DNA of 64,000 nt, from contig JADFZZ010000007.1 in assembly GCA_015232315.1 (NCBI GenBank), forward strand, positions 62,001 through 126,000, read 5' to 3'. Source of the stretch: SAR324 cluster bacterium. GTDB taxonomy: Bacteria > SAR324 > NAC60-12. Both the position numbers and the translations under genes were made by a program. How positions within the stretch are numbered: the first letter of the stretch is position 1; every line of letters begins with the position of its first letter. The notes beneath the pieces are model-generated. The model did no database searches. It worked only from the letters and a program-made list of their open reading frames with translations, and was not told the origin of the DNA. Below are positions 27,701 to 63,829 of this stretch, piece by piece.

Positions 27701-27737
27701 AAATTCCTTTGTGTCTGAGACAATGTTGTAAATTTTT

Positions 27738-27768
27738 TGTGCTTAACGCTGTGGAAGTGTTAAGCACA
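27738..27768. repeat. Perfect 10-bp inverted repeat between fibre genes
   Basis: TGTGCTTAAC (27738-27747) and GTTAAGCACA (27759-27768) form a perfect hairpin with an 11-nt loop. It lies between the large fibre gene and its paralogue. On the minus strand no U-run follows, so it looks more like a processing or stabilising element than a terminator. Confidence 0.55.
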
Positions 27769-27813
27769 GGATGTTATTGATGATGCGATGATTGGAGGTA
27801 TTTCATAAAAACC

Positions 27814-36300: not shown

Positions 36301-39300
36301 TTAACGATAAACTTCCTGTCCTTCTGTAATAGATCGAACATCCTCAAACACATCCACGCCAAACACATTCCCCAGTCCAAGGCTTTGTAGTTTGGGGATA
36401 ATAGCCTGAACAATCTCGTCTGCGCCGCCGTCACCACTCACTTTGAACGTGGTGAATTCTCCATTGTTGTTGATTGCCACAGTCAGGTTATTGACCACAT
36501 TATAATCCACCGATGTCGTGCCTGCGCCACCAGTATCTCCGTTGGCTACAATACCACCAGCCGCATATTTTTTGGGAACCCTGCCGGTATTATTCATGAA
36601 ATCGAGATTCTCAACTCCCAATCTGGAAACAGCCGACTTTCTGAGTATGTACTCACCGCCTTCCAGTTCGACAGAATTGCCCGCAATCGGGCCACCCATC
36701 GCCATTTTTATCGGAATGATCCCGCCTTCGCCAAACGGCAAGTATTTTTGAAAGTCCTTGGGAACAACGTCTTTCACAATATCCCTGCCAATCTTGCCTA
36801 GATCAATGCCACCGCCCACATTACTGAAATTGGCTATAAATGAATCAGTCGCTTTCCTGGCCACTGCTCCAAAATCTGGGAAGGTAGACGCATCAAACGA
36901 CAACTTCCCGAATATGTCGTTTAAGGCTTTAGACGCTTGTTCCTGTATGTTAGAAAAAGTGGAGGAATCAAACGACAGCAATGCGCCCACTTTATCGAAC
37001 GATGCAGAAAAGTTTTCAGTAAAGTTGCTAAAGGTTGACGGATCAAAACTCAACTTCCCAAACACGCTATCAAGAACGTTTCTTACAGTAGCTTCCAGAT
37101 TATATTGTTCACTCACTCCCTGCAAAAATGTAGCTGCTGCATTGAATGGAGCCATTAACACGTCAAAAACGCCCTGTACCGCACCTGTAATATCTGGCGT
37201 GGTCACTGATACGCTCCCAATATTCGCTGCGCCACCACCACCGCCGGTAAATAAACCAAACAGACTCGAAATTGATCCAATCACCAACTGGAACGCATCA
37301 TTTGCCGCATTCACCACTGCAATCACTGTTGCCGAAGATGCCTGCATTTGCGTCAATGGTGCAGACAATGATGCCAAAAATCCTGGAATCACACCTGATC
37401 CCCCTGCGGAGGCTTCCGCAGGAACACCACCTCCCTCCTCAAATTTCGGAATCAAGCCTCCATCGGCAAAAGTTCCCGTTTTGTTTAGCCGCCCCAGCCT
37501 GGATGCTCCGATCCGGTTGACGGTAGCTTTTTTGATGATGTACTCACCACCCTCCAGCTCCACCATTCCTCTGGAAGCTTTTACATACGCTGGGATTCCT
37601 CCATGCTTATGCGAAGGCCCAACGAGCAACCCCCCAGTCTGATAGGTGTCAATCGGGCCACCTTCCGCCTTCTCTTCACCGCCACCACCACCAAAAATAC
37701 TGGAGATTATATTCCCGAATGTGCTGAATACCGATCCCACGTTTCGCCCTAGCAATTGCATCGCTTGCGACGCCTGTGTCAATGTCGGAAAGTCCATCAT
37801 TGCTCCCAAATCACCAATGGATGTACCTATCCCTGAAATCCAGTTGCCAAGCTCTTTAATCCAGTCTTCTGGGCCACCAAATTGGCTCAGATCCGGCATT
37901 TCAAAATCAAATTCGGTGATGGTATCTTTCAAGGGGTTCAACGCCACATCCAGGTCTGATAACATTTTGCCGAAGTTCTCCAAGTTGACCGTCAGCGCAT
38001 TGAGTACGTCTATATCTGCTTGTGAAAACACGTCCTTCAAGGGGTTCAGCCCCACATCCAGGTCTGATAACGCTTCTCCAAAATTCCCCAGATTGACCGT
38101 CAATGCGTTGACATAATCAAATTCAAGCACAAAATCTTTCAAGGGGTTCAACGCAACATCTATGTCTGAAAAAAATGATTCAAGCCCTTTCAAATTGGAT
38201 GTAATGATGTTCAGCACATCAAAATCAAACTCAAAGCTCAGATCAACACCCTCAATCAACTCCTTCAAGGGGTTCAACCCTACATCTATGTCTGAAAAGA
38301 ATGATTCTAGCCCTTTCAAATTGGATGTAATGATGTTCAGCACATCAAAATCAATGTCCTTGAACGCATCTGGATTCGGCATCAATGATCCGATAACCTT
38401 GGCTATCAGTTTATCAATCTCTTCCTGAATCGTGTCGAATGTCGGGCTTTTCTGGGCAATGTCCAGAGCCAATGCCAGCGGTGCCAAAGGCAACAGCAAA
38501 ATGAACAGGAATAATTTTTTTATGTCTTCTTCATGTGCGCTGAACTCTCGCTCAATGTCCTGCATGATCTTTTCAGGGTCATTATTCGCAAAAATCATTC
38601 CGACTATTAATGCAGCAGCAGCCACCATCCAGCCACCGGCAACAAAGGCTATGGCAGTGGCAATTCCAACCGCAATGGCTTCTTCATCCGTGGCATTGTC
38701 GCCTAACAGTGCCTTGGTAATCAATGCGCCACCTACCAGGAACCCTATGGCAAGCCCGAATGTACCGCCTACTACGACCGCAATCGCAGAAGCCAACGCT
38801 AACGCATTACTGGCTTCAGGCTCAAACCCTGCCATATCCGCCAAGGCCGCCGTGAACATTGCCGCTGCTCCTGCCATCAGAATACTGCTTAACATTTCAG
38901 GGGCACCAGGAGGCAGATTGGCTGCTGCGCCCGCTAACGTTCCCGCACCTGAAATCAATGCCAGTGGGTCTGTTTTTGGTGGAGGATTGTCGTTTAGATT
39001 TGGATCCGGTGGGTCTGTGTCCGGCAAATCATATTTAGGGATCGTTATTGTTGACCCTGTGTCCGATGGGCCTGTACCGGAACTTGTATCGCCCGAAGTA
39101 TCCACCGTGACTTTGATCCCAGGATCAACGAGCTTTTCCAGTGCAGACTGGGTCTCCTTGTCCATCGAAATATCGAGGGACGTTGGGACGCTACTCGCAT
39201 CCATTTTGACGGTGAAGGTTTTATCGGCTGTATTGAAGGTTTTTAACTGACCTGCCAGGCCGTTAAACGCACTCTGAGACTCTCCCTCTAATGAACTAAT

Positions 39301-42300
39301 CACTTTCTGGGTCAGGGTAAAATCCGGCCCTATCTGCTCTGCCGTTTCCACTGAACTAACAAGGACAGCCCTCAATTCCAGGGCATCGTCTACCGACTGT
39401 CTTAACTGGGCATCATCAATAGCGATGGTGAGACCTTGATCAAGAAATTCAGCCTGACTCACTGCGTCAACCAACGGCTGAAAGCTCACAATCTGGGACT
39501 CGTCAAATGTCTCCACAAAGCCTTTTATCTTAGCCCGCATGGTTGCAAGTTCATCATCCTGCGTCTTCCTGAAGGATGAAGCAACCCTGTCAAAAGTGGA
39601 AGCCAATGCGTCCAGTTCCTCAACCGTCTTTGCTACAGAAATTGCGCTCAGGAGATCCGAGCTGATCGCTTGATCTGCCGTCATGCCTCCGGTTGCCAAT
39701 TTTTGCAGAGCTTTCCCCAGAATACCGCCTTGCTCAAACTTTCCTTCCTGTTGAGATTGGCTGAAGTTCTTTCCATGAGAGGCCAGCAATTGCAGGAAAA
39801 ACTCCTGGAATCCAGGCAGTTTCATAATATCTTTCGGGATAACTCCCTCACCGCCTTCCACTTCCGCAATATACACCCCATCTTTGTTCTGCACCTTGAT
39901 GCCCCCCTGTGCGTGGCTTGGGCCTTCCAGAATTCCACCCACTGCATGAGAGGGAAGTATCATGCCTTTTGCCCCGAAACCAAACCCTTTGAACACATCA
40001 ACAATGGGTTTCAAGATACTGCCTTCCCAGGGGTCATGTTCTTCATCTTCATCCTTCTCATTTTTTTTCTCATCTGCAAGCGAGGTTTGATAGCCTGTCA
40101 TGATGTTCAGGATTGCCTGGATACCGTTCGTGGCGTTGCTTCTTACCGTATCAATCGCATCTGTGATCGTGGTATCAGCTTCGTTTCCAGAAATGGTCTG
40201 TATCAGTGGTGTCATATTGGCGTTGAGCGTATCCAAGGCTGCATTGGTCTGAGCTTGCAGGTCAAACAACTTCTGGTCTCTGGCCTTCTGTAAATCTTCC
40301 TTGATTTTTTCCAGTAGTTCTCGCCGCTCTTCCTGGGATTTCATCAAATCAATGAGATCCTTCTCAAATTGCGCCTCCGCAGTTTTCAGACCGTCCAAGA
40401 TGGTATTCTGGGCACCCAGCAATCGCTGGAGTTCAGTGTTTTGTGCTTCCATGGCTGCGGTTTGTCCCGCAATTGCGAGGTTTGTCAAATCTGTTTGCTG
40501 TTGCAGGAGGGCGTTTTGCTGTTCCACCTGCTTATCAATCCTGATTTTTGCCAGTTCATTGTTCTTGGTATCACGGGCTACATCATACTCTCGGTTTTTT
40601 GCTGCCAGTTCTGCATCGGCCTGTATTTGTTGCTCCAGCAACGCAATATTCTGTTCCCGTCTGAGTGACTCCATTTGATCGTTTGCAGCAGTGAGCTGCG
40701 CTGCGATGTCTTCGCCCAGCGAGCCGAGAAGATTAAACAACGGGCCTGACTCCCCAAGCGAACCCACTAAACCGTCACGGACTTCAACCAATAAGGAACT
40801 GATCGGGCCATCGGCAGACAACAAATCTGTCAAAGAGGCGTCTCCGTCCACCTGGTTTGCCACCAGGTTCCCGATTTCGCCCTGCAATTGCTGAAGCTGA
40901 AACACATATTGGTCTGTGGAAATAAACCCTTGCTCATATTGCTGCTCCAATACGTCAACCTGCCGGTTGAGCAGGATGTTTGCCTGTTCCCGATTACCTG
41001 AAAGGCTGGTGTCCAGAGAGGCGTATTGCGCTTGCAAATCTGATAAAGATGAGGCCAGTGACTCCGCCGAAACGGAACCTGTTGAATCGTTCAGGCTTGC
41101 TTCAAAAATCTTTTCCTCAATGGATTTGTTGAGGTCAAACATGCTGTCCACAAAGTCTCTAAAATTATTCAGAGTCTCTGACTGGGAATCTGACTGTTCT
41201 TGTATCGCTTTCATCTGGGCATCAAACTCAGCATTGATATTCGCCACCTGAAGGTCGTGCAATATGTCCAGATATTCCAGCTCGATCCCTCTTTTCTCCT
41301 CGATTGCGTTCAACTCCTCCTGGGCCTGTTTTTCCAGTAGGTCGAGCTGATAAGCGTTGTACCGCTCTGTGGTTTTCCTGGCGTTATCAACATCTTCCGT
41401 GGTCAACGCTGCCAAAGATTCAATCCTGGCCATTTCCTGGAGATGTTCGTCCTCTTTGAACTCTGCGCCTTCAATGTTTGCTCTGACTGCTTCTTTGTAT
41501 GCTTTGCTGTCCAACTGAGCCTGAACGTCAGCGGCTTTGGTCATAATACCCGCCAGTTCAGCGGCCATCCTTGTTTCTAATGTGGATTGTATGTCTGTGC
41601 CTTTTACTTTTGACAATTCCAACCGTGCATCAACGGCAGCAAGTCTGGCCGCCATGTTATCTCCGGCAGCGTTGAATTTCGCCTGTTCGATGCTCAAATC
41701 CTCCGAGGCTCTCAGATTTTCAATCATGGTGGCATTGTAGGCGGCCAAAATAGATGCTTCTTCATTCCGCAAGATGGCCATTTGGTTTACATAGCCCTGC
41801 TCTATTTCGATCAAGGCTCTTGTCGTGTTGAGGTCGGATATGGTGGAGAGGACTGAACTAGATAAACTCTCTAGCCCCTCTCTGAGTGAGCTGATAGTGG
41901 ATTCTGTACTGGAGATGGATTCTCTCACACCGTAGATTGCGTCATTCAAACCGAGTTTTGCTTCTGAGACCAGCATACCTGCGGTGTTATAAACTGCTTC
42001 TGCGCCGTCCATGATGAGACTGACCTGTTCTTTCAACTGATTGAGTTCTTCCAGACGGCTTCCGGCTTTGACTTCACCATATTGATTGGCCTGGAAATTC
42101 AATAACTCGGCTTCAAACCCGTCACCGACTATCCCTGTAATCTGCTCTGCGAAGTCACCAAACACGCTCTCCATAGTGGAGCCTTCTCCGAATATCTCTT
42201 CCAGTTGTGTCTGGTCGATTCCAGTAGTCAGCGCAGCGTCCAGGAATGATTTTTGACTTTCCAACATCAGATTCAGGTACTCCACCTGAGCGTCAAAATT

Positions 42301-45300
42301 GCTTTTAATCGCTACTGCCAGACTGTCATGCAACTGGATAAGGCTTTCCAGGTCAGGCATTAAATCGGCCACATTTTCCTGCTGGCTTGCGAGGGCGGCG
42401 TTGTATTTTTCCATTCCCTTGGTAATGAGCGCCGTGGTGGTACTGATGGCGATGCCCATATCCTCAAAACCTGCTGCGCCCTGGTTGATCAATGTTTCTG
42501 CCAACACACCGTCTGTTGTACCAGGATCAAAATCACCCGCAGACACCAACCCTTCAAACTTCTTCCCAATCTGAGTAACAAGATCCGCAATGTCCGCCTG
42601 GGTACTCTCTATCGCTGACTGGGCGGCTTTCAGTGGCGACTTGGTGAGAGTATCAACAATCGAATTAATATCCTTGGTGATGCTGCTGATGTTCTCCAGA
42701 ACAGATTTAATATTGTTCAAGAGTTCCATCTGTAACTTATAGTTTTCCATGATGGCATCTGAAACCAGTTCGGAGTTTTTCACAACCGCATTGGCAAACG
42801 CTTCGCTATCATAATCAAGACCCTCGAATCCCGTAGTAATCAGCGAGGAAAAGTCTGCGAAACCGTTTGCTCCCGCTTTGATAACACCCTTGAGCTGAGA
42901 ATTAAGGTCATCAATTGCGCCTCCAGCTCCGATTCGCAAATTGTTCTGTGCCTCAAGCATTCTATCAGAGATGGATGAACCGGCCTCTTTGATGGACTGG
43001 AATTTCCCTTCCAAATCACCAATGGCTGCCGAAAAGGTGTCCATTATTCTGTTGATCCTGTCCATGGTCTCTTGATATTTGCGCTCCCGCTCTTCCTCTT
43101 TGGCTTGCTGTACGCCATACGCTGCGCCTGCCAACGCAAACACCGCACCGACTGGGCCTGCATAAGCTGAAGCTCCAGCAACACCCGCAAATTCTGCGGC
43201 CTGTATGCCAGCCGCCCCTAGAGCCAACCCTTGCTGTGATCCTTGCAATCCTGCATCGAACCCGTCCACGTTGCGCTTGAAGGCATCCGCAATCAATTTA
43301 CCGGCTTCCGACCATCCCTGTTCTGATAGCTGATCCCATTGACCAGTGATGAGCAGCCCTGTGTTTCCTGCGCCAGCTCCCGAAAATGCCGACATGATCG
43401 CAGCCCGTTCTTTCTGCTTCTTGAGGATCTCGTCTTCCAGCTCATACATTTGTTCCAGCAAACCCAGTTGCGTTTCGTATTCTGTGGAAATTTCTGGCAA
43501 TCCTGCGCTCTTGGCTACACCAATCGCTTTGCTGGCTTCTTCCAGTTGCAGTTCCCGCTCCTTGTTTTTTGCGGCCTTCTCTCCTCCTTCGATAAACGAT
43601 TCCTGAATGATCAGATTTTTCTGGAGCTGGTAGTTTTGCGTCTGCAATTGCTCCTGAAACCTCTTCAACTGCTCATTGCGTTGCTTGTCAGTTTCCGACA
43701 GTTTCTCGTTGGCTGCCATTTCTGTCTGCACATCGTGGATCTCGGTCACAAGTCTCTTTTGTTCCTCCAGTCCTGCAATCAGGTCTGCTTTCCCTGCCTT
43801 CCGAGCGGCTTCTAGCTTTTCGTCAATATTCTTCAACTCAATGCGGTATTCGGTCTCACGTTGCAATAGGCCCAGTTGGTCTCTTCTGGTCTGTTCCTTC
43901 CGTTCCTCGATGTCTGCGAGGTTGCGTTCAATCTCGGTCTGTTCCCTGGAACCCTGGAGTTGATTTTCAGAGGTTTTTCCGAGTTCTTTGGACTTTTCCA
44001 GCATTTTAATACTAAGCGATAGCTGGTCACTAAGCCCCTTGTTCTGTTCCGCAACTTCTCTTGTCTGCGTTTTCAGCTCGTCTGTGATTTCTTGCTGATT
44101 GTTAAATTCTTCAAGCAGTTGTGCCGCAGTTTTGTTGGCCTTGTTGGGTGCCAAAGTGTCCAGTACCTTCAATTGGGCATCAATTTGCTGCAACTCTGAA
44201 GTCATCTGGGAGATGTAGGTTTTTTCCTGTGCGACACCAGCCTGTAAATCATCAAGTTTATTCTGATAAATTTTTACACTGTTGCTGGCGAATCTTTCGC
44301 CAAGCTTGCCCCTGTTCGCATTCACATCATCAATCAATTTTTGAGTATTGGAAATGGCCAAATTTGACTTTTCGATGCGTCTGTCTGCATCATCCATTTC
44401 TGATCTAATCACTGACGCATAATCGCCCCAGTATTTTTTCAAGTCTTTTGCAAATGCAGCGTTTTTTGCGTCAATCCTCAGCCCTTTTGCCTTGGCCGCA
44501 TTGAATTCTTTCACTGTCGCAGTGTTCCCCGCATAGGTCTGGATCAAAAGATCATTGGCCTGTTTTTCTGCGATCAACCCCTTCAAATACCTGTCACTCA
44601 GTGCCATGAGGAGGTTGTATTTGTTCACGGCAACTCCTCCCACACTGGCGGCGGTGGAGGTACTCTCTGTCAATTCTTTGATCAAGTCCCTGATTTCTCC
44701 CAGTGCTTTCTTGTCGATAAAGTCTTTAATCACCAGAGCTTCACCACTGCCTTCTGCTTGTTTACGCAAATTGGCGATGGCTGCCGTCATCGTGGCCATC
44801 ATGCGATCCAACGCTCCACTGAAATTAAATGAAAACACATCCGTCATCAATTGCAGTAAACCAATGGCCAAAATCTTGATTCCTTCAAGCATCTTGGAGA
44901 TTTTATCCAGGCTTGACTCTAGCTCCTCCATGCCGGTTGGACTTTTTTTGATCTGCTGGAAGGTCTCATAAATAGCATAGCCCACGGCCAGAATACCGGA
45001 CGCAAGCAGTGCCATTTTACCGGCGGTCAATCCCACCAAAGCCACTTTCAGCGCATTGGCTGCGATCACCGCCTGACTCATCCCGACCTGGAATAACAAA
45101 ATAGCTTTGTCTACACGCTCCACCACCGCAAGGTAGGCGACTTTTGCCAGCACCAGGGTCTTGTATGCGGTGGTTAGCAATACAATCGTACCGGTCAAGG
45201 ACAGCATCATTTCACCAAGCCCTCGCAACAACACGATGGAATTATCCGTGGACTCAAAAAAGTCCCTGATGGAATTCGCCAGATCCTCAACGTGCCTCAA

Positions 45301-46704
45301 TACTGCCATCACTGCCGGTCTCAACTTCTGGAACAACGCTTCATACATCGCATCCAGTGCCGATAGCGTAATGGACATTTGCCCTGCGGTGTTGTCCAGG
45401 GCGGCCTTATACGATTCCTCGGCTGAGATGGCGTAACGCTGCGCTCTGGCGTAATCCTCAATGCCTTTGGTCGTTTCTTTTACGGAGTTCAGCAAAACCA
45501 TGGCCGAGGCCACATTCTCCCGTCCGAAAATCCGCCCCATGATGGATTGGATGTCCACATCGTTCAGTCCTTCCACGCTTTGCCGAATCAGCCCGAAAAT
45601 TTCTGGAAGAGTCTTGAGCTTTCCTGTGGATTCATCCGTAAAACTATTGACGGAGAGCTTTAGACGGCCAAAGGCTTCAACGGTTTCAGGGGTGATAGAT
45701 GTGAGTATGGACAGGATGCCTTTGAGTTGATTACCGGCTTTTGAACCGTCTATGGCATTGTCATTGAACAGGGACAGGGTAGCTGCCGTGTTTTCCAGGC
45801 TCATCCCGACAGCGTTGGCAATCGGGCCGACTTCAGCTAATCCTTCAGCCAGTCGTTCCACATTGGCAGCACTCGTAGTCCAAGCCCCGACAAACACATC
45901 GGAAACCCTGTCTGCCTGATCTGCCATCAAGCCAAATTGGTTTAAGGTAGCAACTATGACTTCACCCACCCGCTCGATGTTCGTGCTGGTTGCTCCTGCG
46001 AGATTGAGGGCGGCGGTAATGGCGTTGAGCGAATCCACGGCTTTGAGTCCGCCAGCGATTAAATTGGCAAACGCATTGGCCACTTGACCTGCGGTGAAGG
46101 CGGTTGTCGAACCCAATGCCTTGGCTTTTTCGGTAATTTCGGAAAATAACTCACTCGTTTTTTGGAGATTTCCAACCTGGGCGACTTTAGACAGTGACTT
46201 TTCCAGCTCAATGCCACTAGCGGTTAAAGTACGGATAGTGCCAACCGTCAACATCCCGACCGCCTGGATCGCAAACAAGCCGGAAGCAATTTCATTGAGA
46301 GTTGTGTTTTTGTGCCGCAGTCCAGCCAACGCCTGATCAAGCTTTTTTGTGCTGTCCACAGTTCGGTTGAAACTATTTCTGACAGCCTCAGAACTCTGGA
46401 CAAGCGTCTGGATTGACCTTCCCGCAATCACGATGTCTTTGGCGGCCATTCCCCACTTTTTTGCAGCAACCTCCGCAGCTTTGCCGCTCTCTCGTCCCGC
46501 TTTGCTGAAGGATGCCGCCAGTTGTTCCGCAGTCCTGGTTCCACCAGACGCAATGGCCTGATGGCTTTTCTGGTAAGTATCGGCTGTTTGTTTGGAGGAG
46601 GTTTTAAGGGCTTTGTCAGTTTGCTCTGCGGTGCGCTGGAACGCTCTGAGTTTTGGGGTTCCGTCATCCTCTACGGTGATCTTACTGCGTAAATCGAAAG
46701 TCAT
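36301..46704 (-). CDS. Giant tail tape measure protein
   Basis: 3467 residues. The N-terminus carries a TP901-type tape measure core at about 150-350 (EITEKAKALGSTTAFTAGQVANAF, then NAVGMSLENTAATLSLFNDNAI). Long coiled coils fill about 780-2200. Hydrophobic helices at about 2590-2705 may insert into the host membrane during DNA entry. Four related repeats lie at about 2780-2935, and Gly-rich GPSHxxGG motifs at about 2258, 3028 and 3348. The length implies a tail near half a micrometre (about 0.15 nm per residue). Its ATG overlaps the upstream stop (ATGA). Confidence 0.93.
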   Translation of the reverse strand: MTFDLRSKITVEDDGTPKLRAFQRTAEQTDKALKTSSKQTADTYQKSHQAIASGGTRTAEQLAASFSKAGRESGKAAEVAAKKWGMAAKDIVIAGRSIQTLVQSSEAVRNSFNRTVDSTKKLDQALAGLRHKNTTLNEIASGLFAIQAVGMLTVGTIRTLTASGIELEKSLSKVAQVGNLQKTSELFSEITEKAKALGSTTAFTAGQVANAFANLIAGGLKAVDSLNAITAALNLAGATSTNIERVGEVIVATLNQFGLMADQADRVSDVFVGAWTTSAANVERLAEGLAEVGPIANAVGMSLENTAATLSLFNDNAIDGSKAGNQLKGILSILTSITPETVEAFGRLKLSVNSFTDESTGKLKTLPEIFGLIRQSVEGLNDVDIQSIMGRIFGRENVASAMVLLNSVKETTKGIEDYARAQRYAISAEESYKAALDNTAGQMSITLSALDAMYEALFQKLRPAVMAVLRHVEDLANSIRDFFESTDNSIVLLRGLGEMMLSLTGTIVLLTTAYKTLVLAKVAYLAVVERVDKAILLFQVGMSQAVIAANALKVALVGLTAGKMALLASGILAVGYAIYETFQQIKKSPTGMEELESSLDKISKMLEGIKILAIGLLQLMTDVFSFNFSGALDRMMATMTAAIANLRKQAEGSGEALVIKDFIDKKALGEIRDLIKELTESTSTAASVGGVAVNKYNLLMALSDRYLKGLIAEKQANDLLIQTYAGNTATVKEFNAAKAKGLRIDAKNAAFAKDLKKYWGDYASVIRSEMDDADRRIEKSNLAISNTQKLIDDVNANRGKLGERFASNSVKIYQNKLDDLQAGVAQEKTYISQMTSELQQIDAQLKVLDTLAPNKANKTAAQLLEEFNNQQEITDELKTQTREVAEQNKGLSDQLSLSIKMLEKSKELGKTSENQLQGSREQTEIERNLADIEERKEQTRRDQLGLLQRETEYRIELKNIDEKLEAARKAGKADLIAGLEEQKRLVTEIHDVQTEMAANEKLSETDKQRNEQLKRFQEQLQTQNYQLQKNLIIQESFIEGGEKAAKNKERELQLEEASKAIGVAKSAGLPEISTEYETQLGLLEQMYELEDEILKKQKERAAIMSAFSGAGAGNTGLLITGQWDQLSEQGWSEAGKLIADAFKRNVDGFDAGLQGSQQGLALGAAGIQAAEFAGVAGASAYAGPVGAVFALAGAAYGVQQAKEEERERKYQETMDRINRIMDTFSAAIGDLEGKFQSIKEAGSSISDRMLEAQNNLRIGAGGAIDDLNSQLKGVIKAGANGFADFSSLITTGFEGLDYDSEAFANAVVKNSELVSDAIMENYKLQMELLNNIKSVLENISSITKDINSIVDTLTKSPLKAAQSAIESTQADIADLVTQIGKKFEGLVSAGDFDPGTTDGVLAETLINQGAAGFEDMGIAISTTTALITKGMEKYNAALASQQENVADLMPDLESLIQLHDSLAVAIKSNFDAQVEYLNLMLESQKSFLDAALTTGIDQTQLEEIFGEGSTMESVFGDFAEQITGIVGDGFEAELLNFQANQYGEVKAGSRLEELNQLKEQVSLIMDGAEAVYNTAGMLVSEAKLGLNDAIYGVRESISSTESTISSLREGLESLSSSVLSTISDLNTTRALIEIEQGYVNQMAILRNEEASILAAYNATMIENLRASEDLSIEQAKFNAAGDNMAARLAAVDARLELSKVKGTDIQSTLETRMAAELAGIMTKAADVQAQLDSKAYKEAVRANIEGAEFKEDEHLQEMARIESLAALTTEDVDNARKTTERYNAYQLDLLEKQAQEELNAIEEKRGIELEYLDILHDLQVANINAEFDAQMKAIQEQSDSQSETLNNFRDFVDSMFDLNKSIEEKIFEASLNDSTGSVSAESLASSLSDLQAQYASLDTSLSGNREQANILLNRQVDVLEQQYEQGFISTDQYVFQLQQLQGEIGNLVANQVDGDASLTDLLSADGPISSLLVEVRDGLVGSLGESGPLFNLLGSLGEDIAAQLTAANDQMESLRREQNIALLEQQIQADAELAAKNREYDVARDTKNNELAKIRIDKQVEQQNALLQQQTDLTNLAIAGQTAAMEAQNTELQRLLGAQNTILDGLKTAEAQFEKDLIDLMKSQEERRELLEKIKEDLQKARDQKLFDLQAQTNAALDTLNANMTPLIQTISGNEADTTITDAIDTVRSNATNGIQAILNIMTGYQTSLADEKKNEKDEDEEHDPWEGSILKPIVDVFKGFGFGAKGMILPSHAVGGILEGPSHAQGGIKVQNKDGVYIAEVEGGEGVIPKDIMKLPGFQEFFLQLLASHGKNFSQSQQEGKFEQGGILGKALQKLATGGMTADQAISSDLLSAISVAKTVEELDALASTFDRVASSFRKTQDDELATMRAKIKGFVETFDESQIVSFQPLVDAVSQAEFLDQGLTIAIDDAQLRQSVDDALELRAVLVSSVETAEQIGPDFTLTQKVISSLEGESQSAFNGLAGQLKTFNTADKTFTVKMDASSVPTSLDISMDKETQSALEKLVDPGIKVTVDTSGDTSSGTGPSDTGSTITIPKYDLPDTDPPDPNLNDNPPPKTDPLALISGAGTLAGAAANLPPGAPEMLSSILMAGAAAMFTAALADMAGFEPEASNALALASAIAVVVGGTFGLAIGFLVGGALITKALLGDNATDEEAIAVGIATAIAFVAGGWMVAAAALIVGMIFANNDPEKIMQDIEREFSAHEEDIKKLFLFILLLPLAPLALALDIAQKSPTFDTIQEEIDKLIAKVIGSLMPNPDAFKDIDFDVLNIITSNLKGLESFFSDIDVGLNPLKELIEGVDLSFEFDFDVLNIITSNLKGLESFFSDIDVALNPLKDFVLEFDYVNALTVNLGNFGEALSDLDVGLNPLKDVFSQADIDVLNALTVNLENFGKMLSDLDVALNPLKDTITEFDFEMPDLSQFGGPEDWIKELGNWISGIGTSIGDLGAMMDFPTLTQASQAMQLLGRNVGSVFSTFGNIISSIFGGGGGEEKAEGGPIDTYQTGGLLVGPSHKHGGIPAYVKASRGMVELEGGEYIIKKATVNRIGASRLGRLNKTGTFADGGLIPKFEEGGGVPAEASAGGSGVIPGFLASLSAPLTQMQASSATVIAVVNAANDAFQLVIGSISSLFGLFTGGGGGAANIGSVSVTTPDITGAVQGVFDVLMAPFNAAATFLQGVSEQYNLEATVRNVLDSVFGKLSFDPSTFSNFTENFSASFDKVGALLSFDSSTFSNIQEQASKALNDIFGKLSFDASTFPDFGAVARKATDSFIANFSNVGGGIDLGKIGRDIVKDVVPKDFQKYLPFGEGGIIPIKMAMGGPIAGNSVELEGGEYILRKSAVSRLGVENLDFMNNTGRVPKKYAAGGIVANGDTGGAGTTSVDYNVVNNLTVAINNNGEFTTFKVSGDGGADEIVQAIIPKLQSLGLGNVFGVDVFEDVRSITEGQEVYR
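37905..38363 (-). repeat. Four tandem repeats inside the tape measure gene
   Basis: Four units, spaced about 102-126 bp, each encode a version of L(N/T)xxxNLxxLExFFSDIDVxLNPLK or its variant LxNFGxxLSDLDVxLNPLK. The DNA of units near 38138 and 38264 is almost identical over 90 bp. Two subtypes alternate as pairs, suggesting duplication of a duplicate. The repeats could have changed tail length in steps. Confidence 0.8.
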
Positions 46705-47210
46705 GTTGCCTTTGTACGCTGCTGGTCGTGTTTCTGATGATTCCGTTTCTGGTTTTCGCTCTGCGCTTTGGAGTAACCGCTATAATAAGAGGCCACCAGA
46801 CGCTTCACGAACAACAATTCCTGCGGATTTTCTGGGTCTAATTCATATTCGGCCATCATCATCTTCAAATCATCGGTGTCATAAAGCTTGAACTCACTTT
46901 GTGCCCCACAGATGAAAGTCATAATGACGCTCAGATGTCGTTTCAGATCATGCAACAGTCTGTTCTGTAGCCCCAATCTGCAATTTCCAAAGCAATAATA
47001 CTGATTTTTGTTAAGGAGTGATTCACCAAATAACTTGGTGGCTAGAATCCTGTATTCCATTTCTGAATAAACGGAATCTCTGGGATCGGGGTGGCCTTGT
47101 TCTGTCCAAAGTTGGAAGGTCGTTTTTTCGTCTGGCTGGAGTTTGTCAGCCTTGAATCTGCGGAGAAAATCGTCCAGTTCTTCCTCATCATAGTATAATC
47201 CCTGAAACAT
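46701..47210 (-). CDS. Tail assembly chaperone, frameshifted C-terminal part (T-like)
   Basis: 169 residues from its internal ATG, but probably made only as the C-terminal part of a fusion. A -1 slip at the A9 run (47341-47349) enters this frame 44 codons before the ATG with no stop between. The ribosome site for the ATG is poor (GGAG two bases before). The sequence has acidic helices (YYDEEELDDFLRRF) and a basic tail rich in Gln and Lys. It ends overlapping the tape measure start by 4 bp. This is the position of gpG-T of lambda-like phages. Confidence 0.83.
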   Translation of the reverse strand: MFQGLYYDEEELDDFLRRFKADKLQPDEKTTFQLWTEQGHPDPRDSVYSEMEYRILATKLFGESLLNKNQYYCFGNCRLGLQNRLLHDLKRHLSVIMTFICGAQSEFKLYDTDDLKMMMAEYELDPENPQELLFVKRLVASYYSGYSKAQSENQKRNHQKHDQQRTKAT

Positions 47211-47323
47211 ATCTCCGTAGTCCTCAGTAGAACCCGAAACATTGCAATGGCCCCCATAATTTTTACAGACGGGGGCATTGTCCAGATTAACTTGATAACC
47301 GAACTCTCTGATTTTTCTGGTTG

Positions 47324-48103
47324 CTATTCTTGACGGAAAATTTTTTTTTCTTTCCTGAGCATTGCACGAAAGTTTCTGGCAAATTCCATCAAATCCTGGA
47401 ACACCAGTGGATTGCGGTCAATGAACTCATGAAGAACTTCCATGTCTTGAGACTCAGAATCCCCTTGATATACCAACTCCTTACCTTCTGCATCATACAG
47501 CCCCTCAAACGACTTGATAGCTCGTTTGGCAATGGCCTGATAATACCGTTTTTCGTTGACCCCTTCATGGCCTGGTAACGTCCCAGGATCGTATTCATTG
47601 CGAGGCATCAAATGCCGGTGAAGTATCTCCTGCTCAACCATCTGTGGCAGAAACCGGACAACACACTTGAACGGTTTCATGCCTGTCTGATCAGGGTTTG
47701 TTATCTCTTTTGCTCCAAGCAACTCCTGATACGATTCGAGAATCTGCTCAAACAGTCGTGGGTCTTCATCAAGCAGTTGTTCCAAGGAACTGTCAAAGCC
47801 CGAAATGGACTCTACAATCAACTTGGCTTTCATCTGCTTGACCCTCGACAGCTTTTCTGGGTTTCTGGAAGTGCTTTTCTCTTTTTTGTCCCATGCGTAT
47901 TGAATCTCAATGATACGCAAATCCTGATTCCCAATCAATTTCACCCCAGAGCCTTCTGACTTTGAAATGCGAACCACGATGGTTTTGTCATCGCCGTCTG
48001 GATTGAGTTCTTTTTTTGCGTTCCTTGGCCCATACTTCAAGGAATGTAACGGAGCATACACCGCCGTCACGGGTTTGTCTTGTGTCGCTTCTGCCATTGC
48101 CAT
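47324..48103 (-). CDS. Tail assembly chaperone (G-like), with programmed -1 frameshift
   Basis: Start chosen at ATG 48103 (259 aa), with GAGGA upstream, rather than 48133. In the zero frame it ends a few codons after the A9 run (GAA AAA AAA ATT). Slippage on A AAA AAA gives a 467-residue fusion into the 46701 frame. An AGGA just before the slippery site may stimulate the slip. In siphophages both the short and fused proteins chaperone the tape measure and tail tube. The order tail tube, chaperone, tape measure is the canonical one. Confidence 0.82.
   Translation of the reverse strand: MAMAEATQDKPVTAVYAPLHSLKYGPRNAKKELNPDGDDKTIVVRISKSEGSGVKLIGNQDLRIIEIQYAWDKKEKSTSRNPEKLSRVKQMKAKLIVESISGFDSSLEQLLDEDPRLFEQILESYQELLGAKEITNPDQTGMKPFKCVVRFLPQMVEQEILHRHLMPRNEYDPGTLPGHEGVNEKRYYQAIAKRAIKSFEGLYDAEGKELVYQGDSESQDMEVLHEFIDRNPLVFQDLMEFARNFRAMLRKEKKIFRQE
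47342..47348 (-). promoter_or_regulatory. Slippery heptamer A AAA AAA for -1 frameshifting
   Basis: On the minus strand the codons are GAA AAA AAA ATT, so A-AAA-AAA fits the X XXY YYZ rule. The -1 frame continues without a stop into the 169-aa frame, while the zero frame stops five codons later. No clear downstream hairpin is visible; an upstream AGGAAAG could act as an internal Shine-Dalgarno stimulator. Confidence 0.78.
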
Positions 48104-48150: not shown

Positions 48151-50142
48151 TTAGCAGTACGCCAGATAAAAAGCTGGAACGTCTGCATCCTGGTATACAT
48201 TGGCCCTGATGGTCGATGTCGCTTTCTTGTCACCTGCGTCACGGGTGGGTTGCGCCATCGTCATCTTGGGAACGTACACCGACACTCGTCTGCCTTTTAC
48301 AGCGCCAACGGTAGTCTGGAGACTGGTTGGAGCTTTTGCCAGAGATGCGTATTGCATCGCAAAAAATGAAGGCTTGTAATTCGCTTCCACTTCCAGCGTG
48401 AACTCCCGCACATCGTCCTCTGGAAGACCTGCAAAATCATCAAGAGATCGTTCTTCAGCATCAAATGCGATGTTCTTATTGACACCAATTCGCACGGTCT
48501 TGGTAGTGAGTTTCGTATCCCCAATCAAGGTCACTACGTCCTTTCTGGCTTGGATAGGAGATGCGTCTGAACCTGTAGGAGTAGGGAAATACAGATCGCA
48601 GTCGTCATGATCCAGAATGGCTTTGATTCCACTTCCGGCCATGCCTCGCCATACATTTGCGATGGTGTTGACCGCACTGGTTGTATCCCAATTGTTATAA
48701 CCATAAACCCCAGGGGACTTCTCCACAAATCCACCGCTTTCACCCACCATGATGATTTCGCTGGTGGTTGGATTTTTAACCGTGATGTAGGGGTTGAGTC
48801 TGGTACAATCCAGTAATCCGATGGTTCCCTTGGTGGCAAAATACGCATTTGCGCTCGCTGGAGAAGTAATCAACGGCGTGGTGAGTACCAGACTGTCAAC
48901 GGTACAATTGGCGTCTGTCCAGTATTGGTTCCCGTCAATATAAACCGGAATTCCTGCTGCTGGTGCGGATGCCAGTGAAGCCAAAGCGGAGTCTGTTACA
49001 GCAACGGAGTATTCACCTGCGGTTCCAGTCGCCAGAATCACACCATCGGCTTCGGCTACAGTGAATTTCCAGTTTCCAATGCCGTAAACTGTAATAACAG
49101 CATTGTCCAGGACTGGAAGTGCCAAAGGCTCTGCCAGGTTCAATGCGGATACGCTTCCGGCTGCGGTCACATAATAACGATCACCACCTGCATGAGCAAT
49201 TTTCACAATCAACCCTGCGGGAATTGCCACGGTAAGATCACCTGCTGCGCCATCATCGACACCGACCGTCATATCACCTGCGGATGCGGCAGTATCGGCT
49301 GCAATCGTTCCCCCGGCAATGAACACAGTGTTGATGCTCGCATAATCAGAAGCAATCGGGTTCAGCCGGTTGCCCATGAAATTTGCCTGAATCCCAGAGA
49401 ACACACCCAACGCACCAATCTCAAAACTGTGCTGGAGGTATCCATCGTTGCCTGCTTCCATGTTCCAGGACTGCACAGCCATAGACGTTACCAGGTCGGC
49501 TGCGATGTCGGACTGTGACAAAAAGTTTGCCAACGGGGTACGGACAGAATCGTTGAACGTATAAACCACTGGGCCTGCTTCCACCACATCTCCATTCTGC
49601 GGAGTGCTGTCCAGATTGGCATTCAGGGTAATCGTGTTTCCACTGATGGCTGCGATATGTCGGACTGAGGAAGAAGACGTGCCCACATAAACCGGCATCC
49701 CTACAGCCAAACCTGTTGCGCTGGCCACCACGAATTCCTTGTCGCTGGTCACTGAAGAAATCGTGGTTGTCCCCACTGGGCGTACCGCTTTTTCGGTAAA
49801 GAACATGCTCAGAAGCTTGTCCTCAATAGGCAACGAACCTGATGCTAAACCTGTGGGCTTGGCATAGATTGGGGCAGTTTGGGTCAATGGCGTAAAACTC
49901 CCGTAATCTTTTTTACGAGGGTCTTTGGACGCACTGGCTTCGTTATTTTCCAGCTCTGCCTGTTCTTGTGAAAATGCGTTCAAGTCACGCAAAAATTTGA
50001 TGGCATCCCCACCTCTGGGGAACATCGTTTCGACTTCAAACCTACGGGTCGGGTCGTATTGTGGTCTTAAATAAAACTGTTGTCGTTTGACGTTGATCGT
50101 TGCTGATGATCGTTGAGCCGATAAAGCCGGTGTTCCCATCAT
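48151..50142 (-). CDS. Probable major tail (tube) protein
   Basis: 663 residues, beta-rich, with an inserted region of Ala/Gly/Val-rich repeats (about 120-450) that probably forms surface domains. It has a leader GTPALSAQRSSATINVKRQQF and the C-terminus ends in VYQDADVPAFYLAYC. It lies directly before the chaperone and tape measure genes, after the tail terminator genes, the standard location of the tube protein. Much longer than typical tube proteins (about 150-400), implying decorated tail surfaces. Assigned by position and composition. Confidence 0.72.
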   Translation of the reverse strand: MMGTPALSAQRSSATINVKRQQFYLRPQYDPTRRFEVETMFPRGGDAIKFLRDLNAFSQEQAELENNEASASKDPRKKDYGSFTPLTQTAPIYAKPTGLASGSLPIEDKLLSMFFTEKAVRPVGTTTISSVTSDKEFVVASATGLAVGMPVYVGTSSSSVRHIAAISGNTITLNANLDSTPQNGDVVEAGPVVYTFNDSVRTPLANFLSQSDIAADLVTSMAVQSWNMEAGNDGYLQHSFEIGALGVFSGIQANFMGNRLNPIASDYASINTVFIAGGTIAADTAASAGDMTVGVDDGAAGDLTVAIPAGLIVKIAHAGGDRYYVTAAGSVSALNLAEPLALPVLDNAVITVYGIGNWKFTVAEADGVILATGTAGEYSVAVTDSALASLASAPAAGIPVYIDGNQYWTDANCTVDSLVLTTPLITSPASANAYFATKGTIGLLDCTRLNPYITVKNPTTSEIIMVGESGGFVEKSPGVYGYNNWDTTSAVNTIANVWRGMAGSGIKAILDHDDCDLYFPTPTGSDASPIQARKDVVTLIGDTKLTTKTVRIGVNKNIAFDAEERSLDDFAGLPEDDVREFTLEVEANYKPSFFAMQYASLAKAPTSLQTTVGAVKGRRVSVYVPKMTMAQPTRDAGDKKATSTIRANVYQDADVPAFYLAYC

Positions 50143-52235: not shown

Positions 52236-55200
52236 TTATAAGGGTTTATTATTTCCATAAAAGATCATGGATTTTACAGGTCTGCCATCTGGCATTTCAG
52301 TTATGCCATGGTTTTTGAAAACTTTTAACAATTCTTCTGCTTCATACTGTGAAAGACACACAAACGCTTCCACTTCGTCAAAAATACTAAGCGCATTCTT
52401 AACCATGAACTCGTTACGCCGTGAATTTTGCTTGTATTTCTCCCATTTTTCGGGCTTAAAATCCTGTTCATAATGAGAAGCACCCTCATACATCCGACCA
52501 TAATTGTCACCAGAATAGGCCACCAAGTCCATGCGGGATAATACTGACTTTTTTAGTCTTATCTGTGATCGCCCATTATCAACCTTGTATTGATTCTGCA
52601 TCGTAAAAAACACATAATTCGCTCCACCCGTGTGCATATCTGTTTCTGGGGATTCTCCACCGCTCAAGGGGATTCCTTTACGGAGCCGTTCCATCGTGCA
52701 GGTAAAATCTCCACCCTGGTCAAGGAAATAACCAACCAACTGGTCTAGTTTGGTTTCGGTGTAATGACTAAGACTTTGATCCTTGAAACGCTCCTCTGCG
52801 TCCTTTTTGGTGAAATCCCACCTGTACCGTTTATTCCACCCGTCGCCAAAGTGGTTCACCTCTCCTTCTGGGTTATACCACTCAGGATAGGGCTCATTGG
52901 ATGGCAAGTCAATCATGTGTGTTAAAGCCACGTAGCCTTTCAGCTCTGCAACCTTTTTCTGGTATGACCAGTCAGAGTTGTTAATCTCAGTGATCACGGG
53001 GTGCTTATCACCAAGTTTGTGTAACCCTTGCATCAAATACAACCACTCCTTGAACTCTTTTGGCGTTTGGCTCATGTCAATACCCATCTCGCCCATGAAT
53101 CCAACAATTTCCTTGTAAGCGTTGTCGTTGAATTCTCCATTATATTTCAGCTCAACTTGCCCCTCAAAAGCGTAAAACTTGTGTTCCCCTCGTCCCTCTG
53201 TATCTATGCTAAAGTCTTTCCCGTGATACTTACCATAGTAAGTGGCTTCAACAGCCCCTTTTGTCAGGACAACTACTTTTTTATTTTTGTTCAGCCGGAA
53301 AGCATTTGTTTCTGTTTCCTTTGCATAGCCTTTTATTATCTCTTTAGCTTTGACCTCTTTAACCTCCGTTTTCACCTGAATGGTTTTTACACCATTAGGT
53401 GCTTCCATGCTTTCCTTCCGCAAATAGGCGGAGTAGATCCCCATCATAGCCCCATCCTCCAGTTCTCGTAAAATACTCAAGTAATAAGTAGCCATTGCAG
53501 AGACTTCTTTAGGCAGATCGGGATTCCTGGACAATCTTGTCAAGTCGGAGGTAAGCTCTAACGCTGCGTTTATTTTGGCCATTGATGCGGAATCTCTGCC
53601 TTTACTTAAAGTTTCCATTGCGGCAGAGATGGTCGGCCAGAAAACATCTTCTTCCAATAGTGTTTTAGGGTCATACGGCTTGTTTCTCTGAGCCTCAACA
53701 AAGTCTGACACACGCTCCGCACCTTTCTTGGTCAACTTGAGCTTAATCTTCGTTACAACTTTATTGTCCATCGTCTTTTCTTCCCACCAAAGAGTATTGG
53801 TGTCCTCAACCAAATCAAGGTCACTGCGCACGTTCTTACCCACAATACGGGCCTTCTTTACTTCGGCAACAATACCCTTGATGTCAGACGACTCGATTTT
53901 CTGCATCACATCGCTTGGGGTGGCTTGTTTCATCACCACATACGAGCCTAGCATTGCAATCAGTTTGTGTTTACGGGCAATCAGGTTATTTATGAGTTCA
54001 GTATCCGTCCCGAAACCGGCTTCTTTGCATAATGCTTTCAGTTTGGTGTCTGTCAATTTGGTGAGTTGATTGACATACTGCTTGGCGTTTTTTTTGGTGA
54101 ATTCGTTGAACACCGGCCCAAACACACTCGCAGACTGGTGGTTCATTGAGAGGTTCAGTAAGGTATCAAACGCCGAAGGATCAGGCCCATACGCTTTGGG
54201 GCCACCCTGCGCTCTGAACCGGAACGAACCGCCTGAATCAATCACAATAAATTTGCCATCTTTGTTCTGAAGCAGGTTATCCATCGACAACCCGACTACA
54301 TCCCAGTTTTCCACCAGTCCTGCAACAATGTGGTGCTTGGCCAGCTCATTGTTCTGGTTCCATGTCTTCTTTCCACGGAGGTCAATGGAGGTCAGCCCCT
54401 CCTCATAATCCGTCAGCAATAACATCCGTCTTCCTGTCCCTGCGTTATGGATCAGTCCTGGCGGTGGCATGACTGAGATAATCCTGGATTTCGGAGCTTC
54501 CAATCCAAATGCGGACGCAATGTTCTGGGCCAGTATTTCCGATTTTGCCTGCATGGTGTTGGCGTAAAATTTTCCGTAATAGACTTTCCCAGTGTATTTG
54601 TTGATGAATTTCCCGCCTGGATTGCTGCCTCCCTGGGAGCCTGGCACAAATTCCAGAGAATCTGCCAGGTGGTAACGTTCAATATAATCGTTGAGCAATT
54701 TGTGATCTATTTCCATGTTCAGAAAGTCCTTGAGTCTTTCCTTGGGAACAAGTTTCACCCTGGCTGCTTCCCAGTGGGCATCGGCGGGGTCGCCTCCTGT
54801 ACGAACCGCCTTGTAATACCTGGTTTTGGTTGTTCCACGTTCATAATCACCCACAAATCCCGTGATTTTGACATTGAGACCAGACTCTTCATACGCCTCT
54901 TTCATAGCGTTTTGCTGCATCGTCAGATTAGGCTCCAGTTGCCCCTTGGGGAAGGTATGCTCAATGCCGCCATAATGATCTTTTGGCTCAAAAATCCATA
55001 TCCGTCCATCCGGTTCCTCAATAATAACCCCTGTGGAGGTTTTCTTTTCGGGATGTGGCACAAATTTCGGTTCGTCAATCTTGTCCAGGATATTGCGAAA
55101 GTCTTGAGGCTCTTCATGCCCAAACGGGATACCATTGAGACTGATGGAGGAATGCTCCTGAAGCTTGCTGAACGACACAAACACAGTGGGGTCATTCAGA

Positions 55201-56231
55201 CGTTCCTGCATGGAGTTCTTGTATTGCAAATCTTTCTCGATTTTTTCTTCGGCCTGCGTTTTTAAGCGTTCCTTGATTACCTCGTCCGGTCTGTCGGTGA
55301 CAGTGCTTCCTCCCGACTTTGGCATTTTGGGAGGTTTGTTCGCAGCCATATCTCTGACGGCCTTATTCCTGTCCTGGATGATCTCTTTTGTCATACCAAT
55401 AGAGTGATGACAGTTCGGGTGAAAAATCTCGTTACTGGGCAATGCGTTGAACATGGGCAACCCGAATTGTTTGGCTGCGTCTTCTGTTAGTGCCACCCTT
55501 TTGCCCTCCCAGAACTGGCATTCATCCTTGGCCCCTGTGAAGGTAATCTGTCCTACATCAAACCCACGCTCCAAAAACCGTTGTGTTTTTGCTTCCCGAT
55601 TGATCCTGGCATGATACGTATTGACCGCCATCTTGGTATAAGTTTTAAGATCCCACCGCTTGCCGTTTCGGTCTACAAACTCAAACCCATCCTGGCTTTT
55701 AAGCTTCTTGTATAACTCCTGGATGATTTTTTGCTGAGGTTGGCCCAGTGCTGTTCCTTCCCGAATCGCCTTGGCGAATTCTTCACGCAGAAATTTGACG
55801 GCACTCTCTTTCATCTGCATGGTTCGCCCTGCTATGTCAGTAAACACTTCCTCCGATATGAGCTTGAGCTGGCGCACCATCACTTGCGTCATGGGGATAG
55901 GTTTCCCTTCTCCCAATTCCTGCAAATTCATGTCAGCCCACTCCACACCCATGTTGAAGCTTTCTGGAACGAAGGAATGTACCCAACGTGTCAATTCTGG
56001 ATAGGTCTTGGTAAGGGCTTGCTCCAGGTACTTGAATTTCCCGAAGGCAATGCCTTTTTGGTACGAGGTGAGTTTTTCCTGGGTGAGAGCGATACTCAAC
56101 CGCTCATAGGCTTTCTGGAGGATTGCTTGCAGGCTTTCGGTATGCGCTTGAATCGAGGCCATGCCCTGCGACCAAGACTCTTTTTTCCATTTTTTCCAAA
56201 CTGGAGACTCGTTGATCTGTTGTTCAGCCAT
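52236..56231 (-). CDS. Minor head (MuF-like) protein fused to Nudix-like and kinase-like domains
   Basis: 1331 residues, a polyvalent architecture. Residues about 1-290 resemble the phage minor capsid protein 2/MuF group (GKRWDLKTYTKMAVNTYHARINREA, CQFWEGKRVAL, IFHPNCHHSI). Residues about 398-510 are Nudix-like: G430 to L452 with KEAYEESGL, but Leu replaces the first box Glu. Residues about 525-740 are kinase-like: KYTGKVYYGKFYAN, then WDVVGLSMDNLL and VIDSGG, a D...DN...D pattern as in HipA/PI3K-type folds. The last 200 residues carry LSHYTE and TGGANYVFFTM, possibly a second enzyme. AAAGGA precedes the ATG. Confidence 0.8.
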   Translation of the reverse strand: MAEQQINESPVWKKWKKESWSQGMASIQAHTESLQAILQKAYERLSIALTQEKLTSYQKGIAFGKFKYLEQALTKTYPELTRWVHSFVPESFNMGVEWADMNLQELGEGKPIPMTQVMVRQLKLISEEVFTDIAGRTMQMKESAVKFLREEFAKAIREGTALGQPQQKIIQELYKKLKSQDGFEFVDRNGKRWDLKTYTKMAVNTYHARINREAKTQRFLERGFDVGQITFTGAKDECQFWEGKRVALTEDAAKQFGLPMFNALPSNEIFHPNCHHSIGMTKEIIQDRNKAVRDMAANKPPKMPKSGGSTVTDRPDEVIKERLKTQAEEKIEKDLQYKNSMQERLNDPTVFVSFSKLQEHSSISLNGIPFGHEEPQDFRNILDKIDEPKFVPHPEKKTSTGVIIEEPDGRIWIFEPKDHYGGIEHTFPKGQLEPNLTMQQNAMKEAYEESGLNVKITGFVGDYERGTTKTRYYKAVRTGGDPADAHWEAARVKLVPKERLKDFLNMEIDHKLLNDYIERYHLADSLEFVPGSQGGSNPGGKFINKYTGKVYYGKFYANTMQAKSEILAQNIASAFGLEAPKSRIISVMPPPGLIHNAGTGRRMLLLTDYEEGLTSIDLRGKKTWNQNNELAKHHIVAGLVENWDVVGLSMDNLLQNKDGKFIVIDSGGSFRFRAQGGPKAYGPDPSAFDTLLNLSMNHQSASVFGPVFNEFTKKNAKQYVNQLTKLTDTKLKALCKEAGFGTDTELINNLIARKHKLIAMLGSYVVMKQATPSDVMQKIESSDIKGIVAEVKKARIVGKNVRSDLDLVEDTNTLWWEEKTMDNKVVTKIKLKLTKKGAERVSDFVEAQRNKPYDPKTLLEEDVFWPTISAAMETLSKGRDSASMAKINAALELTSDLTRLSRNPDLPKEVSAMATYYLSILRELEDGAMMGIYSAYLRKESMEAPNGVKTIQVKTEVKEVKAKEIIKGYAKETETNAFRLNKNKKVVVLTKGAVEATYYGKYHGKDFSIDTEGRGEHKFYAFEGQVELKYNGEFNDNAYKEIVGFMGEMGIDMSQTPKEFKEWLYLMQGLHKLGDKHPVITEINNSDWSYQKKVAELKGYVALTHMIDLPSNEPYPEWYNPEGEVNHFGDGWNKRYRWDFTKKDAEERFKDQSLSHYTETKLDQLVGYFLDQGGDFTCTMERLRKGIPLSGGESPETDMHTGGANYVFFTMQNQYKVDNGRSQIRLKKSVLSRMDLVAYSGDNYGRMYEGASHYEQDFKPEKWEKYKQNSRRNEFMVKNALSIFDEVEAFVCLSQYEAEELLKVFKNHGITEMPDGRPVKSMIFYGNNKPL

Positions 56232-62653: not shown

Positions 62654-63829
62654 TTAAACGTCTCGGCGCAGCAAACATGCCAGATTTGGCTCAACACACT
62701 TTGTCCCAAACAGGACATCGAGGGTCACAACCACTTTGGCACTTGAGTCATTATAACTCAAACGTGAGCGGATAGAGAGGTTGGTTTGTGGGTCGGTAAT
62801 GACACTCATGCGAGCGCCAGCACCGTCACCGATTTCGGGAAGGGGTGCCATTGCCAAAGCAAAAGCGTTGCGGTGGAACATCATATTTGCATAAAAGCTG
62901 TCCGCATTAGTGGATGCACCTGGGTCAAATGTCACCACAGCATTGTCCAGATGATTTTGCACCAGATTGGGGAAGATACCGATTGTTCCAGCACCACCCG
63001 TCAAGGTCACATTGGATGTCACAACATAGCGTTGTGAATTCCCTGCGATCACGAAGGAATCACCGGCTTTCAGCGTTTCACCACCCACAGCGAATCCGTC
63101 CACGGCAATGGAAGAAGCACCTTTGGTTGCAGCACCAACTAACGCACCCGTGTTGGTTCCTGAGATCACAGTACCAGAGGTGTGTTGCTTGATGTTCTGG
63201 TTGCGGAATAACTGAACGCCAAAGCGTTGCGCCAGGGTACCACGTAACAACGCATCCAGGTTCTGCCCGTTTCCGCTCACGCTGGCGTTCGACATCCAGC
63301 TTTGCGGTAAATATGCAGCCTCAAGAAACGAATCAATCGCAAAATGAACCATGTTTGTTTGTGCGTCAATCAACGCACCCGCATTGTCCACCAGGACTTT
63401 ACGGCAATTCACAACATCTTGTTCGTCAGGAGATGCTTGCCCGTCAATTTGCCATGGTACGTCAATATAACGGCCCATCAATGCGGAATCGATATAGTTT
63501 GCCAGCGCATACGCAGCAGGGGCGATATGCTCCTGAATCACTTGATCAGTTGTGTAGGAAAGCTCAAGGTCAGTCAACCCGAATTTCACTTCTTTCCACT
63601 GGTCAAGGGTCACGTCAATCATGTCTGTTTCAAGATCCTGAATCGTTCCTGATCCACCCTCGTTTACATCGAAGCTTCCTGGTTTGCGGATCTGGATTGT
63701 TTTCCCTTTTTGCCCTGTAGCCTTGTCATAACCTCGGTACACACGGTTGGCCATGCCAAGCGATTTGTACAAAATCATCAATGCTTCTTGTGCGTAAAAC
63801 GTGGGGTTGTATGCGTCAATCTGGTTCAT
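62654..63829 (-). CDS. Major coat protein, P22 gp5-like
   Basis: 391 residues, near the 430 of P22 gp5. The start (ITEALMILYKSLGMANRV-type sequence) and ETDMIDVTLDQWKEVKFGLTDLELSYT fit the P22 coat family with the HK97 fold. An inserted beta domain at about 215-275 (SGTNTGALVGAATKGASSIAVDG) resembles the telokin-like I domain. Assembles the icosahedral capsid. GAGGCAAT precedes the ATG. Confidence 0.88.
   Translation of the reverse strand: MNQIDAYNPTFYAQEALMILYKSLGMANRVYRGYDKATGQKGKTIQIRKPGSFDVNEGGSGTIQDLETDMIDVTLDQWKEVKFGLTDLELSYTTDQVIQEHIAPAAYALANYIDSALMGRYIDVPWQIDGQASPDEQDVVNCRKVLVDNAGALIDAQTNMVHFAIDSFLEAAYLPQSWMSNASVSGNGQNLDALLRGTLAQRFGVQLFRNQNIKQHTSGTVISGTNTGALVGAATKGASSIAVDGFAVGGETLKAGDSFVIAGNSQRYVVTSNVTLTGGAGTIGIFPNLVQNHLDNAVVTFDPGASTNADSFYANMMFHRNAFALAMAPLPEIGDGAGARMSVITDPQTNLSIRSRLSYNDSSAKVVVTLDVLFGTKCVEPNLACLLRRDV

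Follow-up and report, generated by a model that had tools for sequence, protein, structure and literature searches.

A probable -1 frameshifted tail assembly chaperone with a nine-A slip site in a SAR324 prophage

The prophage tail module carried in the window (the whole stretch of 64,000 nucleotides of SAR324 cluster bacterium DNA that was analysed) very probably encodes a frameshifted tail assembly chaperone resembling lambda G/G-T, in which a -1 slip at a run of nine A's joins a 259-aa ORF into a 467-aa fusion. An earlier note had read the locus as two tail assembly chaperone frames fused by a -1 shift, and this reading is supported by the adjacent tape measure gene, by a weak though specific profile match of the zero-frame protein and by the presence of the same architecture in relatives.

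Results

The zero-frame ORF (47324..48103, minus strand) is predicted to encode a gpG-like tail assembly chaperone of 259 aa, to which the profile match described below refers. It begins at ATG 48103, which has GAGGATAAC upstream with GAGG at an aligned spacing of 5, and ends at TAG 47326-47324. Close to this end the minus strand carries a G-A9-T4 run at 47350-47337 (G at 47350, A9 at 47349-47341 and T4 at 47340-47337), in a context where the zero frame reads ...AGG AAA GAA AAA AAA ATT TTC CGT CAA GAA TAG. The A9 slip site (47341..47349, minus strand) is read as GAA AAA AAA ATT, the register required for a tandem -1 slip, and holds the heptamer A AAA AAA in frame at 47348-47342. An X XXY YYZ heptamer of the kind found in the lambda G/G-T class is therefore present near the zero-frame stop. 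The distance from heptamer to TAG is 15 nt, which is of the same order as the mean slip-to-stop distances of 26 and 36 nt reported for phage sets (PMC10885494).

The -1 frame is free of stops from 47419 to TGA 46703-46701 and after the slip would read KK-NFPSR.... It consists of a linker of 44 codons (NFPSRIATRK...EDYGD; 47211..47342, minus strand), open from the slip site to the first -1-frame ATG, followed by an ATG-started part of 169 aa (46701..47210, minus strand) which, by its position, would be the gpT-like C-terminal half of the fusion. Its TGA and the tape measure ATG share bases as ATGA, and the overlapping 0 and -1 ORFs lie directly upstream of the tape measure gene, as in the lambda G/G-T class. 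The run and its zero-frame reading had been given in the earlier note with every letter exact; its 44 stop-free -1 codons up to the ATG of the 169-aa frame (47342 to ATG 47210) were likewise exact, and recomputing the fusion returned the 467 residues claimed.

Within this single genome, the chance figures for the slip site and open linker are modest, and we regard them as suggestive and not as proof. Across the prophage module, which offers 12,506 codon positions, A_AAA_AAA occurs in frame 4 times, 2 of them in the chaperone ORF, and eight efficient-type heptamers pooled account for ~0.12% of codon positions in prophage genes. The chance of meeting an in-frame A_AAA_AAA is ~1% per 31-codon overlap, and that of meeting any of the eight is 3.7%. 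The second in-frame A AAA AAA of the zero-frame chaperone ORF (48011-48017) lies early in it, far upstream of the opening of the long -1 frame, and so the heptamer by itself is no mark of a used site. Only 3.9% of base shuffles gave a stop-free linker, and the third frame of the linker contains three stops. Codon usage in the linker lay above the 99th percentile for wrong frames read within genes, yet gave p = 0.14 against stop-free shuffles. Two tests for RNA structure downstream of the slip site found none above chance (z 0.14 and z -0.49), a result that is not decisive against a ribosomal shift because several relatives are without such a structure as well.

Profile comparison suggests a link between the C-terminus of the zero-frame protein and the tail-assembly-chaperone family, on good but not conclusive evidence. 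Residues 184-249, a segment adjoining the slip site, aligned with a 14-member zero-frame profile at E 0.0006, and none of 400 shuffled sequences scored as high (28.6 compared with 20.8 for the best shuffle). Comparison with a 17-member chaperone profile gave E 0.001 with 0/200 shuffles as high, and the zero-frame protein was the top scorer among the 28 window proteins tested against the chaperone profile. The two comparisons together span residues 184-251 at E 0.0006-0.001, with 0/600 shuffles as high; the hhalign probability was only 21-28%, and the link is short of conclusive for that reason. An hmmscan of the zero-frame protein gave no match to PHROG or Pfam chaperone models. The -1 frame protein scored 11.5-11.9 against a T-domain profile, within the range of shuffles, and had no Pfam or PHROG match. 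A likeness of its tail (YDTDDLKMMMAEYELDPENPQELLF) to a T-domain motif, seen by eye, proved no better than shuffles and was withdrawn.

Direct homologues of the zero-frame protein, the -1 protein or the fusion were not found by tblastn against phages and plasmids, or in IMG/VR, GTDB contigs or 52 genomes of the same phylum. IMG/VR likewise returned no matches to the N-terminus of the tape measure, a 426-aa protein or the 663-aa protein described below, and single-sequence AlphaFold models were of low confidence (mean pLDDT 39 and 37).

The gene order tube, chaperone, tape measure proposed in the earlier note is supported for two of its three members: the tape measure through PF10145 and PHROG matches and the chaperone through its profile match, with the tube called from position only. 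The tape measure protein (36301..46704, minus strand; 3467 aa) matched PF10145 at E 1.8e-40 and several tape-measure PHROGs, the best at 1.6e-52. The 663-aa protein in the position of the major tail tube (48151..50142, minus strand) was marginal in profile comparison with the tube proteins of relatives, scoring 26.3 against 25.4 for the best shuffle. Tape measures usually scale at 0.15 nm per residue, and one of 3467 aa would imply an unusually long tail of ~0.5 micrometre.

Several other genes of the region were recorded alongside. At 52236-56231 lies a gene for a 1331-aa minor capsid protein in which Phage_min_cap2 (residues 73-277) is fused to NUDIX (397-503); some 800 further residues are without a Pfam match, and the protein is reminiscent of polyvalent proteins that accompany the head. 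Two adjacent tail-end genes at 26636-31917 both match phrog_17105 and share stretches of 72-88% identity (27320-27507 compared with 28381-28568). The larger of the two carries Laminin_G_3 and an Mtd-like domain, and together these features suggest paralogous receptor-binding proteins; Pfam scans of nearby ORFs detected no reverse transcriptase. At the end of the prophage region, beside a DUF5675 gene, 22165-23546 holds a gene with a class 3 lipase domain, overlapped by an ORF that carries a cyclic-nucleotide-binding domain.

Related loci were located using the major capsid protein as an anchor. This protein (62654..63829, minus strand) is P22 coat-like (phrog_283 at E 1.7e-62; PF11651 at E 5e-16) and had 34 relatives in IMG/VR, the best of them 47% identical; the capsid proteins of the IMG/VR family members are 41-47% identical to that of the window. 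Among the capsid-related IMG/VR loci, a chaperone pair could be read in nine, and in each of these (9/9) the two ORFs overlap in the -1 frame with a heptamer in register. In six of the nine, the pair lies upstream of the tape measure and consists of a first ORF of 131-205 aa whose end is overlapped by a -1 ORF, with GGGAAAC as the heptamer in L028, L032 and L033, GGGAAAA in L005, AAAAAAC in L024 and AAATTTT in L038. The heptamer is AAAAAAC in L008 and L018 and GGGAAAC in L030, and L018 and L030 were recognized from the pair alone, without the next gene. A further locus, L027 (15880-16447), carries AAAAAAC in a short ORF before the tape measure and was excluded from the count because its frames are ambiguous (-1 or +1).

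A phage search with the T half of L028 returned 28 records, eight of which were read (L047-L054, L053 being an unannotated record). All eight isolated phages have the -1 slip site, as GGGAAAC in seven and AAAAAAC in one. In all of the 17 relatives but L032, the heptamer is no more than 3-12 nt away from the end of the zero-frame stop; the sequences used across the 17 are GGGAAAC, GGGAAAA, AAAAAAC or AAATTTT. Five scanned pairs matched PHROG 313, 8233 and 3817 (tail assembly chaperone, tail chaperonin) and Pfam Phage_TAC_18. The -1 frame reaches the start of the tape measure in the window (ATGA) and runs into it by short overlaps in L005, L032, L033, L047, L049 and L050; one small gene separates the two in L051 and L052. 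Two prophages of the same phylum (L042 and L043) have unrelated chaperones that nevertheless show a -1 overlap before the tape measure, with heptamers TTTTTTC and GGGAAAG.

Our conviction in the frameshift comes from these relatives, in which the association is specific: among 175 open -1 continuations over all loci, 18 carry an efficient heptamer, and 17 of these 18 are the chaperone pair. The earlier note had expected relatives to conserve both the slippery run and the linking frame. A -1 pair with an in-frame heptamer is indeed present in every readable relative of the wider family; the sites there are not A9, and no true orthologues were found. The refuting condition named in the note, a stop in the -1 linker or two separate frames without the run, was applied to this wider family, and the fusion reading withstood it.

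The same comparison bears on the alternative that no shift takes place and that ATG 47210 serves as a separate start for the 169-aa protein. The ATG has AGGA upstream at an aligned spacing of 8, which is acceptable, four-base matches precede several true starts here, and a clear coding signal appears only from around the ATG onward. A match of at least four bases, however, also precedes 23% of out-of-frame ATGs (112/495), and separate translation would demand that an open -1 frame (~4%) and an in-frame slippery run (1-4%) had both arisen by chance. It would also leave a gap of 113 nt in a module where most gaps are <50 nt, and every readable relative has the fused architecture; given that conserved architecture and the gap, we consider an independent start very unlikely. 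Homopolymers are prone to misassembly, and the assembly is a draft in 88 contigs; were the true run ten A's, or the gene otherwise continuous, there would be a single 467-aa gene. Such an error would have to coincide with the programmed break of the relatives, falling 15 nt before the zero-frame stop and in the right slip register, and we find this scarcely credible.

How the -1 frame would be entered is a separate matter. RNA polymerase could slip on the run, with A10 transcripts bringing the frames into register for normal translation, with or without ribosomal slippage in addition. In vivo, runs of nine A's or T's make the polymerase slip efficiently, and Thermus dnaX relies on this (PMC5009743); the A9 run is longer than the seven bases needed by a ribosomal site, and the stimulatory RNA structure was not found at the window's site. 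Pointing instead to ribosomes are the heptamers of the 17 family relatives, with their short A runs, and a gene for tRNA-Lys(UUU), the tRNA prone to slip at A AAA AAA, which is present in the genome among the matches listed. On balance, a part for polymerase slippage appears somewhat unlikely though worth serious consideration. The classical ribosomal heptamers of the relatives make it most likely that ribosomes carry out at least part of the shift, to which the A9 run could add polymerase slippage; as runs of nine A's are also known sites of transcriptional slippage, the preference for ribosomes over polymerase is one of likelihood. The sites of the relatives argue for ribosomal slippage as the ancestral mode, and the window's own sequence would allow either or both.

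Discussion

We infer the occurrence of the shift, its efficiency and the roles of both proteins, with lambda as the guide to the last. At the proposed site most ribosomes would stop at TAG to give the 259-aa G-like protein, and a minority would slip back one base at A AAA AAA to give the 467-aa G-T-like fusion. On the lambda model, the G part would coat the tape measure of 3467 aa, tail tube subunits would be brought in by the rare T extension, and both the G-like protein and the fusion would be absent from the finished virion. Since the -1 frame ends on the tape measure ATG, the shifted ribosomes could be those that re-initiate on the tape measure. Lambda makes gpG and gpGT in a 30:1 ratio, its T domain connecting the tape measure with the tail tube, and the G/GT frameshift is widely conserved in long-tailed phages despite low sequence similarity (PMC5009743). 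In HK97-like chaperones, the measured shift is 6-7% (PMC3711429).

The presence of a -1 pair in all readable relatives, together with the family profile link, places the window's pair with the known lambda G/G-T class. As in lambda gpG/gpG-T, two ORFs precede the tape measure, a -1 shift with a slippery heptamer lies near the end of the first, and the proposed products are a G-only protein and a fusion. The window differs from lambda in its A9 run and its proteins of 259 and 467 aa, and no direct sequence similarity was found between the two. Lambda slips at its own heptamer, which is other than A9. The closer comparison is with the family of PHROG 313, 8233 and 3817 and Phage_TAC_18, which includes Xanthomonas phage Xp15 gp17/gp18, Pseudanabaena phage Pan1 and Stenotrophomonas phage Bhz58. 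The window shares with this family the order (putative) tube, chaperone, -1 frame, tape measure, the heptamer just before the stop and, judging by the profile match, probably the C-terminal segment of the zero-frame protein. Unlike the family, the window has a zero-frame protein of roughly double length whose N-terminal part finds no match, a T half of ~213 aa (compared with ~115) that cannot be aligned, and AAAAAAA as its heptamer in place of GGGAAAC or AAAAAAC; phages of the Bhz58 and Langgrundblatt1 type also differ from the window in that one small gene follows the T frame and precedes the tape measure. Thermus thermophilus dnaX similarly joins two frames at a nine-A run (A9/T9), in an unrelated gene for which polymerase slippage has been shown.

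The window's pair is thus ordinary for the lambda G/G-T class and well supported, but very divergent and about twice the usual size. Its mildly unusual points are limited to the A9 run and the large proteins, within an arrangement that is standard for long-tailed phages. A more speculative proposal, which we think unlikely, is that this lineage has swapped the conserved ribosomal G-T site for a run of nine A's on which RNA polymerase slips, either by itself or in combination with the ribosome. If polymerase slippage were the true mode, the chaperone ratio would be fixed at transcription, and the enlarged chaperone halves would accompany an unusually long tape measure of 3467 aa. The A9 run may make this a suitable case in which to ask if ribosomal and transcriptional slippage can interchange in one conserved gene. 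For annotation, the two ORFs, which are called separately, should be merged. With this locus the frameshifted tail chaperones gain a very divergent member, from a phylum of bacteria in which few species have been sequenced; it suggests that frame architecture and slip site outlast sequence similarity that has nearly vanished.
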